Positions 7,874 through 15,595 of a stretch of DNA of 64,000 bases are shown here, one piece after another. Position 1 is the first letter of the stretch; the number at the start of each line of letters is the position of its first letter. The stretch is from Synechococcus sp. JA-3-3Ab (lineage in GTDB: Bacteria; Cyanobacteriota; Cyanobacteriia; Thermostichales; Thermostichaceae). Location of the stretch: NCBI RefSeq assembly GCF_000013205.1, contig NC_007775.1, positions 248,001 through 312,000 on the forward strand, read 5' to 3'. The translations under genes and the position numbers were made by a program. Under the pieces are notes generated by a model. That model was not told the DNA's origin, searched no databases, and saw nothing but the letters and a program-made list of their open reading frames with translations.

Positions 7874-9310
7874 ATGGTTATCCCCTCTCTGCCGCTGTCG
7901 CGGTGGCTTTCCCCCTTGCGTCGGTACTTTCGCCATGAGCTGCTGCCGCTGCTGGCGGATCTGCGTCTGGCCATCGGCCTTTTCTTGGCAATTGCCCTTT
8001 TGAGCGCGGTTGGCACGGTCATCGAGCAAGAGGAAACCGTGGCCTTCTATCAGGCCCACTACCCCGAGCATCCGGCCCTGTTTGGCTTTCTCACCTGGCG
8101 GCTGATCCTCAAGCTGGGGCTGGATCACGTCTATCGCACCTCTTGGTTTCTGGCCCTGTTGATCCTCTTTGGCAGCAGCCTGGCCGCCTGTTCTTTGACG
8201 CGCCAGTGGCCGATGCTCAAGGTGGCCCGTCGCTGGAGCTACCTCACCCGTCCCCACTCCTTCCAGCGGCTGCCCTTTTGGACCTATCTGCCCCAACGCT
8301 CCCTGCAGGGGCTGCCGCAGCGGCTGCGCCAGCGGGGCTATGCGGTGTTTCAGGACGGATCCCGACTTTACGCCCGCAAGGGTCTGATTGGGCGGTTTGG
8401 GCCTATCCTGGTGCACGTCAGCCTGCTGCTGATCCTGCTGGGGGCCATCTGGGGCAGCCTTGCCGGCTTCAAGGCCCAAGCGCTGATCCCCAGCGGCAGC
8501 GTCGCCGCCATTGAACAGGTAACCGGGGCAGGGGATCTGGCTCATCTACCCACCTGGCAAATTCGGGTCAACCGCTTCTGGATTGACTATGCTCCTGATG
8601 GCCGGGTGAAGCAGTTTTACTCAGATCTCTCGATTTTGGATGGGGGCCAGGAGGTCAAACGCCAGACCATTTCCGTCAACCATCCCCTCTCCTACCGGGG
8701 GGTGACCCTCTACCAGGCTGATTGGAGCATCGACAGCATCCGCATCCGCCTCAACAACAGCCCTCCCTTTCAAATCCCGGTGGTGCCGGTGCCCACCCAA
8801 GCGGGCAGCAAGCTCTGGGGCGCTTTTGTCCCCACCCGGCCAGACCTAAGCGAGGGCCTGACGCTGTTGTTGCCCGATTTGCAGGGGACGGCCCTGCTCT
8901 ACGACACCCAAGGCCAGTGGATAGGATCCCTGCGCCAGGGCATGAGCCTGGCCCTGGACGAAGTTGCCCCCCAGCGCTTCCCCAACCGTCTTACCCTGCA
9001 CCTAGACGAGGTTATCGGCGCCACCGGTCTGCAGATTAAATCCGACCCAGGGATCCCGCTGGTCTATCTCGGCTTTGGGCTGCTGATGCTGGGGGTGGCG
9101 ATGAGCTATTTCAGCTACAGCCAAGTTTGGGCCCTGGAGACGGAAGCAGGGCTCTACCTGGGAGGCAAAACCAACCGCGCCCTGGTGAGCTTCGAGCGGG
9201 AGTTTGCCCGCCTGGTGGAGCAGCAACTGCTCTCCTCTCCCCCTTCGCCGGCAAAAGAACCCCCTCCTGCCGCTCGCGTCGGCGGGACGGAGTCCTTAGC
9301 CAACGGCTAG
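7874..9310 (+). CDS. ccs1: Cytochrome c biogenesis protein Ccs1 (ResB family)
   Basis: With CcsA, ResB/Ccs1 forms the system II cytochrome c synthase that exports haem and attaches it to apocytochromes on the lumenal/periplasmic side. The protein has N-terminal membrane helices (LADLRLAIGLFLAIALLSA; TSWFLALLILFGSSLAA), a third at IGRFGPILVHVSLLLILLGA, a large soluble lumenal domain, and a final helix VYLGFGLLMLGVAMSYFSYS. 478 residues is near the family norm. It follows ccdA on the same strand; CcsA is not in the window. The TAG stop shares the palindrome CTAG with the stop of the converging kinase gene. Confidence 0.9.
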   Translation: MVIPSLPLSRWLSPLRRYFRHELLPLLADLRLAIGLFLAIALLSAVGTVIEQEETVAFYQAHYPEHPALFGFLTWRLILKLGLDHVYRTSWFLALLILFGSSLAACSLTRQWPMLKVARRWSYLTRPHSFQRLPFWTYLPQRSLQGLPQRLRQRGYAVFQDGSRLYARKGLIGRFGPILVHVSLLLILLGAIWGSLAGFKAQALIPSGSVAAIEQVTGAGDLAHLPTWQIRVNRFWIDYAPDGRVKQFYSDLSILDGGQEVKRQTISVNHPLSYRGVTLYQADWSIDSIRIRLNNSPPFQIPVVPVPTQAGSKLWGAFVPTRPDLSEGLTLLLPDLQGTALLYDTQGQWIGSLRQGMSLALDEVAPQRFPNRLTLHLDEVIGATGLQIKSDPGIPLVYLGFGLLMLGVAMSYFSYSQVWALETEAGLYLGGKTNRALVSFEREFARLVEQQLLSSPPSPAKEPPPAARVGGTESLANG

Positions 9311-12300
9311 CCATGGCGGCTGTTTGACCGGCAACGCTGCCCAGGGTCATCTAGCTCCCCTCTCCCTGAGGGAGAGGGGCTGGGGGTGAGGGCGGAACTG
9401 CCCAAATCCGGCAGGCTGACCGCGAACAGGGTGCGGTTCTCGCCGCTTTCCACTTGCAGGATCCCTTGCAACAGCTCCACCGCCTTTTTCACCAGCGGCA
9501 GGCCCAAGCCGGTGCCCCCCTGGTGGGCGTAGTCCAGGTGCGGGATGCGGTGGAACTTCTCGAAGATGCGCGGCAGGTGCTCCGCTGGGATCTCGACACC
9601 GGTGTTGGTGACCTGCAAATGGAGACCCGACGAATCGACCGCCACTTCCAGATGAACCTGCTGGCCGGCAGGGGTGTACTTGGCGGCGTTGGCCAGCAAC
9701 TCGCTCAAGATGCGGGTGAGCAGCCCCACATCGGTGTTGAACAAGATGGGTTCAGAGGGGGGGTAGGAGATAAAGGTGAGCTGGCGCTCTTGAAAGCGCA
9801 GGGCAAAGGGCGGCAACAGCTTTTCCAGCCACTCGCGCACCTCGAAGCGGGCGATCTCCAGACTGCGGCTGCCGGCCTCTAGCCGCTGCAAGTCCAGCAG
9901 GTCGTTGACCAAGTCCAGCTCTTTTTGCCACTCCTGTTTGAGGATGTTGAAATAGGGGATCTGCGCCTCGGAAAGGCCGCGCACTTCCAGCATTTTCAGG
10001 GCCATTTTCATGCTGGTCAGAGGCGTGCGCAGCTCGTGGGAGACCATGCTGAGAAACTCTTCTTTGAGCTCGTTGAGCTGCTGCAGTTGCTGGAGCTGAG
10101 CCTGGGTTTCCTGGTAGAGGCGGGCCTGGCGAATGGCGATGCTGCACTGGGTGGCCACCTGCTCGGCAAAGTGGATCTCGGCCTCGGTAAAGCCCTCCTG
10201 GGGCAGGCGAACTAACTTGAGAAAGCCCAGCAACGAGCCGGTGCCTGAGACAAGCTGCCCTTCTTGCTCTTCTACAACCAGGGGGCAGGCAAGCAGGGTA
10301 CAGCGCCCCCGCAGCGGGTGATCCGTGCTGAGGTAGAGGGTCTGGCCTTGGCGGAGCTGGCGCAAAAGCACGGGATCCAAGGGCAGAGTGACCTTGCCCA
10401 GGGGGGGCAGGGATCCCGCCGCTTCGTAGGCCAGCGTGTAGGTCTGGGTTTCCGGATGGATGAGGGCCACACCGCAGGCGCCCAGTTGGAAAGCCTGGGT
10501 GAGCTCCCGCACCACGGTGGCCAAGATCTCCTGTTCGTCCAGGCTGGAGCGCACCTTGTCGCCAATCAGCCGCAGCAGTTGCTCGTATCTCACCCGCTGG
10601 GCCAGCTCGGCATTGCGCACCTCCACCTGGTAGCGCAGCTCGGCGTTGGCAGCTTGGAGTTGCTCAAACAGCTCCGCCTGTTGCAGCGCCAGCCCCAGTT
10701 GATCGGCAATTTGTCGCAAAAAATCCGGCATCCAGGGATCCCATTGTTTGGGGGCGCTGCACTGGTGGGCGATCAACAGCCCCCAGAGGCGGGCCGGCTC
10801 GCTGTCTTTGCCGTCAGGGCCAGCCGCCTGCAAAATGGGCACCACCAAGTTGGCCCGCACCCCCAAACCGGCCAGCAGCTCGCGGTGGCAGGGCTGGATG
10901 GGGGCGGTGTCGATATCTTCAATGGCCGAAATGCGGCCCTGCTGATAGGCCTGGTGCCACTGGCTAACAAAGCATTGATCTTCGATAACCAGGCCCAGCA
11001 GGCTCAACTCTGGCCGGCTGACCGATTGCATGGCGATCTCGCCCACCCAATTGGGGAAAAAGCGGTAGATCACCACCCGCTCCACATCCAACAAACGGCG
11101 GACTTCTTCTACGGCAAAACCCAGGATGGACTCCACCTGCAACGATTGCCGGATCCCTTGGGCGATGCGGTTGAGCAGCCGGGCTTGGTGGAGTTGCAGT
11201 TGAGCCTGCTCCTGGGCTCGCTTGCGCTCGGTAATATCGACAATGGAGGCAATGCCGTAGATTTGTTTGTCGGGAGTCTCCGCCACAAAAGACGAGAGGT
11301 CAACCCAGAGGATCTCGCCGCTTTTGCGGATGTAGCGTTTTTCCATGCGGTAGCCCCGGCGGCGGCCCGCTCGTATTTCTTCGACATAGATTGCCTCCTG
11401 CCGCAGATCCTCAGGGTGGGTGAGGTCGGCGTAATTCATGCTCAAGAGCTCGGCCTCGGTGTAGCCGGTGAGCTGGCAAAAGCTCTCGTTCACCTTGACG
11501 ATCTGCCCCGCCGCATCCGTAACTGCCATGCCCACCGGGGCTTGCTCAAAGAGGTTTTGAAACAGATCTGGCTGATCGTGCAGCGAGTGCTGCCGTTTTT
11601 GTTGTGGGTTCTGCAACTCTTTTTCCTGGGTCAAATCCTGTACGCTGGCAATGCCGATTACCTTCCCCTGGGCATCCTGCCAGGGGGCATCCAAAATCCG
11701 CACCGGAAACCGCTCGCCGTTGCGACGCATAAAGGTCAGCTCCCAACCCTGCGGGGGCCGACCCTGAGCCAGCCCCTGGGCGAAGGCGGTGGCGATCTTC
11801 TCCATCTCCTCCGGGGGCCAATAGACAAAAGGGGGATCCTTAACGGCCAGCGGATCCCGGTAGTCGCCGGCGGCCAAGGTTACAACAGGGGCGGTCATCG
11901 CCTCAGCCAGGGTGGATCCCTGCCAAGATCGGTCGCTGGCCACCCACCGCAACACAAAAGGATAGCTTGGTAGCCCCGTACTAAAGTACGGGGCGGAAAA
12001 GCCCTTGAGCCACTTTAGTTGCTTCTTTGTTATAGTTAGTACAGAGCTTCTCCAGGAAAACAACCTACTGCGGTGCAAAACCCGCGCGGCAATAACTAAC
12101 CTGGAGGAACTTAAGTCCGAAGTAAGCAGAACTTTGAGGTTATGCCTCAAAGGACTGTCTAGGGGCGTCTTGACAGCGCCTTTGCGAGTCCATTTTGGGC
12201 TGCGTAAGAATCCCCTGGGTGGGAGTGTCAAATCCACAGCCGTCAAAATGTCCACCACTCGGCCTGCATCCACCACCAAGGCGTAGGGCCGGGAGCCATT

Positions 12301-12417
12301 CTTTTGCGCCAACAGGGAGAGAACCTCGGCAAGGGGGCTGTCGAACCCGACCAAGAGTGGCATCTGGCCAAAGCACTGTTCCAGGGATCCCGATGAAGAG
12401 CGCAAGTCTTGCACCAT
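9307..12417 (-). CDS. Sensor histidine kinase with CBS, PAS and DXCF cyanobacteriochrome GAF domains
   Basis: 1036 residues. Order: first half of a CBS domain (1-62), an in-frame insert (about 63-152), the rest of the CBS region (VLRWVASD, then EAMTAPVVTL), a PAS-like segment (~205-275), a PAS domain (from ~289, LFEQAPVGMAVTD), a GAF (~405-560), a second GAF (~635-775), HisKA (SHELRTPL near 791) and HATPase (NAAKYTP; GGTGLGLPLVKKAV). The first GAF carries DQCF (Cys482) and PCHRELL (Cys510) before GVRANLVVPI, the two-cysteine pattern of DXCF cyanobacteriochromes, so bilin-based blue/green-type light sensing is likely (inference). No receiver domain or response regulator is adjacent. The last ~20 residues (TPSPSPSGRG) come from a dispersed repeat. 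Confidence 0.88.
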   Translation of the reverse strand: MVQDLRSSSGSLEQCFGQMPLLVGFDSPLAEVLSLLAQKNGSRPYALVVDAGRVVDILTAVDLTLPPRGFLRSPKWTRKGAVKTPLDSPLRHNLKVLLTSDLSSSRLVIAARVLHRSRLFSWRSSVLTITKKQLKWLKGFSAPYFSTGLPSYPFVLRWVASDRSWQGSTLAEAMTAPVVTLAAGDYRDPLAVKDPPFVYWPPEEMEKIATAFAQGLAQGRPPQGWELTFMRRNGERFPVRILDAPWQDAQGKVIGIASVQDLTQEKELQNPQQKRQHSLHDQPDLFQNLFEQAPVGMAVTDAAGQIVKVNESFCQLTGYTEAELLSMNYADLTHPEDLRQEAIYVEEIRAGRRRGYRMEKRYIRKSGEILWVDLSSFVAETPDKQIYGIASIVDITERKRAQEQAQLQLHQARLLNRIAQGIRQSLQVESILGFAVEEVRRLLDVERVVIYRFFPNWVGEIAMQSVSRPELSLLGLVIEDQCFVSQWHQAYQQGRISAIEDIDTAPIQPCHRELLAGLGVRANLVVPILQAAGPDGKDSEPARLWGLLIAHQCSAPKQWDPWMPDFLRQIADQLGLALQQAELFEQLQAANAELRYQVEVRNAELAQRVRYEQLLRLIGDKVRSSLDEQEILATVVRELTQAFQLGACGVALIHPETQTYTLAYEAAGSLPPLGKVTLPLDPVLLRQLRQGQTLYLSTDHPLRGRCTLLACPLVVEEQEGQLVSGTGSLLGFLKLVRLPQEGFTEAEIHFAEQVATQCSIAIRQARLYQETQAQLQQLQQLNELKEEFLSMVSHELRTPLTSMKMALKMLEVRGLSEAQIPYFNILKQEWQKELDLVNDLLDLQRLEAGSRSLEIARFEVREWLEKLLPPFALRFQERQLTFISYPPSEPILFNTDVGLLTRILSELLANAAKYTPAGQQVHLEVAVDSSGLHLQVTNTGVEIPAEHLPRIFEKFHRIPHLDYAHQGGTGLGLPLVKKAVELLQGILQVESGENRTLFAVSLPDLGSSALTPSPSPSGRGELDDPGQRCRSNSRHG
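9357..9392. repeat. Dispersed palindromic repeat, copy 1
   Basis: CCCCTCTCCC-TGA-GGGAGAGGGG forms a perfect 10-bp hairpin, followed by CTGGGGGTGAGGG. The same unit occurs at 18955-18992 and 25931-25954, and a weaker form at 48496-48517. Here it lies inside the 3' end of the kinase gene and supplies the residues TPSPSPSGRG. Confidence 0.75.
11962..12230 (-). mobile_element. Small non-autonomous IS200/IS605-like insert inside the kinase gene
   Basis: The flanks rejoin as a normal CBS strand (DILTAVDLT to VLRWVASD), so about 270 bp look inserted; limits are good to about ten bases. One end (11973-11994) is a perfect 9-bp hairpin, GCCCCGTAC, loop TAAA, GTACGGGGC. The other end, on the minus strand, begins near TTGACACTCCCACCC. 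There are no target-site duplications or inverted terminal repeats, and no transposase fits inside. That is the form of a MITE of a Y1-transposase family. It leaves the kinase frame open, adding about 90 residues. Identity to a parent IS is not shown in this window. Confidence 0.6.
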
Positions 12418-14353: not shown

Positions 14354-15595
14354 TCAACGGACTGGTAAACCAGGATCCTCCACAGCCAGAGAGCGGCAGT
14401 CCCACCGCCCCCCTATATCCCCCCGTATACGGGGGGACCTGAGTCCACGCTTCAAAATCTCGATAGCAGCGTTCAAGTCTCTGTCCCACGACCCGCAACG
14501 GGGGCAATCATGCACACGTTCCGACAAGGCCTTGGGAACACGCTCCTCACAAACACAACAATTTTGGGACGTACCACGGGGATCCACTCTCAACACCTGT
14601 TTGCCGCGTTTGACCGCCACTGCTGTCAGAATGTCAAGAAATTGTCCCCAAGCCGCATCCAAAATCGATTTAGCCAACCGAGTCCGTGCCAGCCCTCGGA
14701 CGTTGAGATCCTCCACCACCAACAGGTCGTATTGCTCCACCAGCCAGTGCGCCACTTGGTAGTGGAACGCTTTGCGTTGTCGGGCAACGTGCAACTGCAA
14801 ACAAGCAACTTTCGTGGCTTGTCTCTTCCAGTTGGCGGATCCCTTCACTTTGCGGCTCAGTTGCCGCTGCTGTCGAGCCAAGTGTTTTTGGGCTCGGCGG
14901 TAGTGCCGCGGGATAGGCACCACCTCCCCATCGCTGGTGGTGAGAAACCTATCCAATCCCACATCAATGCCCACCGCCTTTTTGACCGGCACAGGCTCTG
15001 GGAGAGGAACGCTTTTGTCCTCCAAGGTGATGCAGACATACCACCCATCGGCCTTGCGCACCACTGTGCAGGTTTTGGGCACGAACCCCTCTGGCAAGGG
15101 GCGGTGCAGCACCACAGGCATCGAGCCAATCTTGCTCAGCCGCAGAGTCTCCCCTTCCAGATGCGCTCCCGCCTTGGGGCAATTGATGCGGGGGAATGTG
15201 AAGGATCTCAACTCCCCCGCTTTTTTGAAGCGAGGCCGCCCCCGCCGTTTGCCTGTGCTATCCGGCACCTGCCACGCTTTCCACGCCTTGTCCAGCCGCA
15301 TCAAGTTTTGCTGCAGCACCTCGGCGTAAATGCCCCGGTAGGCCGGGAACAGTTGCTTGATTTGTTTGAGGGATCCCGCCTGCCGATAATAATTCGGCTC
15401 CAGCGGAGCTTCTGACACAGGCAACGGACAAGAGACAAGGCTGCAGCGGTCAATTGGACAACGGGTTGCGGTCAGCCAATCCAGTCTCTGCCCCAGAGCG
15501 TCGTTCCACTGCCGCCGCAACAATTCCAGCCACTCGGTCATCAGAGCGGCTTGGTCGTCACTGGGCAGGATCCGGTACTCGTGGGTGATAATCAT
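14354..15595 (-). CDS. tnpB: TnpB, RNA-guided RuvC-like nuclease of the IS
   Basis: 413 residues, full length. RuvC-type catalytic positions are all present: Asp in GIDVGLDRF (about residue 211), Glu in VVEDLNVRGL (about 295) and Asp in DRDLNAAIEI (about 371). A zinc finger lies between the last two (CCVCEER, then CPRCG). The N-terminal part has the basic Arg/Lys-rich WED/REC-like features. TnpB uses an RNA from the element's right end to cut DNA at the donor joint, which favours retention of the IS. No stop or frameshift is visible, in contrast to tnpA. The start ATG overlaps the region where tnpA must start in the other direction. Confidence 0.92.
   Translation of the reverse strand: MIITHEYRILPSDDQAALMTEWLELLRRQWNDALGQRLDWLTATRCPIDRCSLVSCPLPVSEAPLEPNYYRQAGSLKQIKQLFPAYRGIYAEVLQQNLMRLDKAWKAWQVPDSTGKRRGRPRFKKAGELRSFTFPRINCPKAGAHLEGETLRLSKIGSMPVVLHRPLPEGFVPKTCTVVRKADGWYVCITLEDKSVPLPEPVPVKKAVGIDVGLDRFLTTSDGEVVPIPRHYRRAQKHLARQQRQLSRKVKGSANWKRQATKVACLQLHVARQRKAFHYQVAHWLVEQYDLLVVEDLNVRGLARTRLAKSILDAAWGQFLDILTAVAVKRGKQVLRVDPRGTSQNCCVCEERVPKALSERVHDCPRCGSWDRDLNAAIEILKRGLRSPRIRGDIGGRWDCRSLAVEDPGLPVR

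Follow-up and report, generated by a model that had tools for sequence, protein, structure and literature searches.

The closest described systems to the locus reported here are cyanobacteriochromes (CBCRs). TePixJ, whose GAF domain (PDB 3VV4 and 4GLQ) is a blue/green CBCR of the DXCF type, is a methyl-accepting chemotaxis protein. Tlr0924/SesA of Thermosynechococcus carries N-terminal CBS repeats and a PAS domain, followed by a DXCF GAF and a GGDEF diguanylate cyclase output, while PPHK (PDB 6OAP) is a dual-sensor histidine kinase. Thermophilic mat Synechococcus serve as ecological models, and their light-colour sensing has been little described: a survey of their two-component systems covered phytochromes and named no DXCF cyanobacteriochrome in the genus.

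We analysed a window of 64,000 nucleotides from Synechococcus sp. JA-3-3Ab (Thermostichus), a Yellowstone mat strain (PMC9953108). Its minus strand carries an ATG-initiated open reading frame for a sensor histidine kinase (Table 1), which belongs to a known CBCR family and is itself uncharacterised. What is new here is the altered input end, remodelled or decaying, of an otherwise known receptor type. Specifically, we consider it very likely that the first GAF domain of the kinase (GAF1) belongs with TePixJ and Tlr0924 among the dual-cysteine DXCF light sensors and that the N-terminal CBS/PAS1 input has been damaged in this strain. GAF1 is 39% identical to the TePixJ GAF and shares with it the DXCF and CH cysteines, their spacing, the Asp, His and Asn, an Ile or Val plus a Leu at the tuning positions and the GAF fold, although the output here is a histidine kinase. 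Tlr0924/SesA resembles the window family in its CBS-PAS-GAF order and in the Ile/Val plus Leu pair; it differs in its output, in having CY in place of CH and in its intact CBS repeats. PPHK is the top match of GAF1 in both sequence and Foldseek searches (45-48% identical GAF) and is likewise a histidine kinase, but it has DQYF for DQCF, and hence no second cysteine, and a Phe at helix 4.

Table 1. Features of the sensor kinase gene (window coordinates; residue numbers refer to the kinase).
Feature	Position	Strand	Basis
Orphan sensor histidine kinase, 1036 aa	9307..12417	-	ORF + Pfam
Domain order: CBS remnant, mobile-element segment, partial PAS1, PAS2, CBCR GAF1, GAF2, HisKA, HATPase	9307..12417	-	
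CBS1 remnant, residues 23-63	12229..12351	-	Pfam + alignment to orthologues
280-bp MITE-type repeat in CBS1, read through in frame, no stop	11952..12231	-	Multi-copy in genome
Junction of in-frame deletion (~115 residues) at GGATCC direct repeat	11836..11850	-	Orthologue comparison
PAS1 C-terminal remainder, residues 195-270	11608..11835	-	Alignment to orthologues
PAS2, residues 294-397	11227..11538	-	Pfam
GAF1, CBCR GAF domain, residues 406-590	10648..11202	-	Pfam GAF 9.7e-31 (residues 429-578), PDB CBCR matches, AlphaFold model, fold matches
Cys482, second Cys of DXCF motif, predicted C10 ligand (= TePixJ Cys494)	10972..10974	-	Sequence + alignments
Cys510, canonical Cys of CH motif, predicted A-ring C3(1) ligand (= TePixJ canonical Cys)	10888..10890	-	Sequence + alignments
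GAF2, residues 626-762, without bilin cysteine pair	10132..10542	-	Pfam GAF_2 + sequence
HisKA dimerisation/phospho-acceptor domain, residues 785-849, MVSHELRTPLT	9871..10065	-	Pfam
HATPase_c, residues 896-1003, G1 box NTGVE	9409..9732	-	Pfam + sequence

The kinase core is intact, with Pfam matches to HisKA (PF00512, 7e-16), including the H-box His, and to HATPase_c (PF02518, 7e-21), including the N and G boxes. The G1 Asp is replaced by Asn, as it is in 28 of 48 G1 boxes found in related kinases, and a pseudokinase reading based on this replacement was dropped for that reason. A first-pass annotation of the window had given the protein CBS, PAS and HisKA/HATPase parts; Pfam recovers the PAS, HisKA and HATPase domains, whereas all that is left of the CBS part is a disrupted fragment with a partial match.

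The same annotation had proposed a profile search that might place the GAF outside the phytochrome/CBCR families; GAF1 was placed inside them. All PDB sequence matches of GAF1 at E <= 1e-17 are CBCRs or cyanobacterial phytochromes, i.e., one superfamily, with the top match reaching 2e-41 in the phmmer search and 1e-71 in the profile search. The first matches are cyanobacteriochromes (6OAP at 2.4e-41, RcaE, NpR3784-derived proteins, NpR6012g4 (6BHN) and TePixJ), and a 25-sequence profile searched against the PDB gave the same CBCR placement. An AlphaFold model of GAF1 (pLDDT 89.8; alignment of 39 sequences) superimposes on TePixJ 4GLQ with Z 24.2 and an rmsd of 2.0 over 149 residues, and its best fold matches are CBCR GAF crystal structures. 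Phytochrome GAFs follow close behind because the superfamily shares the fold; what distinguishes CBCRs from phytochromes is the DXCF motif together with the sequence scores, as the fold by itself does not. GAF1 thus groups with bilin-binding CBCR GAFs in both sequence and fold. In a tree, it falls among DXCF domains together with its two congeneric orthologues (100/99), in a clade that is apart from RcaE, NpR6012g4 and NpR3784 and, with weak support, near the blue/green Tlr0911; the deep forks are open. It is most closely related to dual-Cys DXCF domains, and nearly all of the closest relatives have both cysteines, while the lack of the second cysteine in the best-scoring PDB relative (6OAP) weighs against a dual-Cys reading. 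A search for relatives among viral contigs found none. Profile, fold and relatives are all of CBCR type and, as far as sequence and model can tell, argue for the DXCF photosensory kinase that had been suggested at first pass.

The cysteine pair itself is as initially described: DQCF (residues 480-483, with the second cysteine in D480-Q-C482-F483) and PCHRELL (509-515, with the canonical C(H/Y) motif as Cys510-His511) lie 28 residues apart, cysteine to cysteine, directly before GVRANLVVPI, which starts at 519. A six-frame scan of the window for D.CF-26-CH gave a single occurrence, and none of 20,000 shuffled versions of the protein contained it; we therefore dropped a chance origin of the pair. 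Among 172 aligned related GAFs, the full cysteine pair is present in 128, of which 120 show the same spacing. The first-pass annotation had given this spacing for TePixJ as well, correctly so: a Thermosynechococcus GAF that is 100% identical to the TePixJ PDB chains has DPCF and ECH 28 apart, and an alignment of GAF1 to TePixJ brings both cysteines into register. Besides the cysteines, GAF1 keeps Asp480, His511, Asn523 and His551; the Asp, the Asn and His551 are common to more than 90% of dual-Cys relatives and His511 to 70%. This retention makes it highly improbable that GAF1 is a CBCR-like domain that has lost bilin binding and acts as a protein-protein module instead, as might be proposed from the loss of cysteines in some CBCR-related GAFs (L011, L023 and L025). 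The hallmark of the red/green (XRG) lineage is a W-x-D-x-x-L motif (PMC11284453). The red/green Trp lid is absent from GAF1, where Ile478 occupies the Trp position (IEDQCF).

As for colour, we located the tuning positions of GAF1 by counting along the sequence of NpR6012g4, in which we take them to be F634 and F695. The beta-2 and helix-4 residues are Ile461 and Leu518 in GAF1, Val and Leu in TePixJ, Tlr0924 and Tlr0911, and Met and Tyr in the teal-type Tlr1999. TePixJ was identified by a sequence match; the BP-1 gene names Tlr0924, Tlr0911 and Tlr1999 are presumed from genome position. Our best guess from these residues is that GAF1 is a blue/green sensor with phycoviolobilin, since its tuning positions resemble those of TePixJ and Tlr0924. 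DXCF domains also include blue/teal and blue/orange types, and Phe residues at beta-2 and helix-4 have been linked to the blue shift of the photoproduct to teal (PMC5240096). GAF1 might accordingly bind a bilin with one of these other photocycles, or keep phycocyanobilin without isomerising it, particularly as the published trapped-twist residues predict colour only partly. We consider this rather unlikely, given that GAF1 has the Ile/Leu combination of the blue/green group, with neither Phe nor Tyr at the two positions near ring D and with Leu where the teal Tlr1999 has a helix-4 Tyr. The genome (a single contig of 2,932,766 bases was searched) encodes heme oxygenase and PcyA, the latter scoring over its curated cut-off, so that phycocyanobilin can be made. 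A thermostable blue/green sensor kinase, if confirmed, would be a practical subject for structural work and optogenetics.

In the mechanism that we propose for such a blue/green sensor, phycocyanobilin would be bound covalently by Cys510 at ring A and isomerised by the protein to phycoviolobilin, and in the dark state Cys482 would add to C10, giving blue absorption. Blue light would then flip the 15,16 double bond and break the second bond to yield a green-absorbing form. The signal would reach HisKA/HATPase by way of GAF2 and coiled linkers and would alter autophosphorylation, with the phosphoryl group presumably going to an unlinked response regulator. The kinase gene is an orphan. Its neighbours in the window are ccsA/ccs1-type cytochrome c biogenesis genes, glcE-like (glycolate oxidase-like) genes and a TnpB-type gene, and there is no response regulator beside it, either here or at two orthologue loci. 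Given that the neighbourhoods differ and none offers a response regulator, no partner can be named. At its 3' end, the kinase gene shares a 4-base overlap with the convergent ccs1-type gene, and the C-terminus LTPSPSPSGRGE (window 9357-9400) runs into a GC-rich palindrome CCCCTCTCCCTGAGGGAGAGGGG that is not in the orthologues.

These congeneric orthologues, G001:C26 (69%) and G005:C3 (72%), have the layout CBS-CBS-PAS-(PAS)-GAF-GAF-HisKA-HATPase; in G004 (3.0 Mb, one contig) we found no orthologue above 43%. Both share PCH, the GAF-GAF-HisKA-HATPase arrangement and the orphan state with the window kinase, and carry DPCF and PCHR where it has DQCF and PCHR; the G005 protein lacks the PAS2 found in the window kinase. 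Unlike it, they lie in other neighbourhoods, contain no mobile element and have an intact CBS2, and they give good Pfam CBS matches (3.6e-15 and 2.5e-13). In the window protein, a complete CBS pair is absent: Pfam CBS picks up residues 23-63 only, at E 3e-5 and 24.6 bits (cut-off 24), and the match is partial because the 280-bp repeat interrupts the domain. The repeat splits CBS1 and adds a net 276 nt relative to the orthologues; this number is divisible by three, and no stop codon is introduced. The deletion, whose ends are two GGATCC-containing sites, takes most of CBS2 and the N-terminal half of PAS1, leaving 6 residues between two DP motifs that are separated by 121 in both orthologues.

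Because the insertion and deletion have damaged CBS/PAS1 ahead of GAF1, the kinase, if made, probably senses light without the CBS input present in its relatives. One account, which we consider rather unlikely, is that the two events cut off the CBS-PAS input but left the light-sensing and kinase parts untouched, so that a multi-input sensor is in the course of being remodelled into a light-only one. With two N-terminal lesions the gene may be decaying; that it is a decaying pseudogene which lost its input domains and kept its frame by luck is, in our view, also rather unlikely. CBS1 is broken, CBS2 is largely gone, as is half of PAS1, the part from the start to the element is poorly conserved, and the insertion is recent, given the 98.6-99% identity between the element and another copy. 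The chance of keeping the frame through both events is about 1 in 9, so that frame retention alone does not show selection. Against decay, the frame is open and conserved for more than 800 residues, starting in PAS1 and reaching HATPase, the H and N boxes are intact, and dN/dS relative to the orthologues is low (0.16-0.18 for GAF1, 0.11-0.15 for GAF2 and 0.07-0.09 for the kinase), although these values are rough, as dS is near or past saturation, and average over time before the insertion. The damaged N-terminus provides a natural experiment for asking if the CBS/PAS input is important to a CBCR kinase.

The 280-bp element has eight further copies in the genome (247-282 bp, 90-99% identity), which have common ends (TTGACACTCCCACCC and CTATCCTTTTGTGT) and unrelated flanks, as expected of a short multi-copy MITE. 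The same ends also occur as separated pairs about 1.25 kb apart, and the short ORFs inside these longer copies match no Pfam family. An Rfam search of the 280-bp element gave no match; the element has strong folding potential (z -2.5). Distant copies were seen in G003 and G004, and none was found in G001, G002 or G005.

One copy of the element lies directly downstream of L002 (G000:C1:2574995-2575507), a single-Cys CBCR-like GAF with Tyr for the second Cys (WDEYF) and a canonical PCY. The genome also encodes a second DXCF GAF (L006, G000:C1:2854355-2854861), with EDPCF and EPCY, in a 1524-codon open frame of a hybrid kinase with PAS, kinase and receiver-like parts. Finally, the TnpB-type gene in the window (14354-15595, minus strand) is a complete TnpB/OrfB_IS605 gene, encoding 413 aa with a Cas12f1-like TNB domain.
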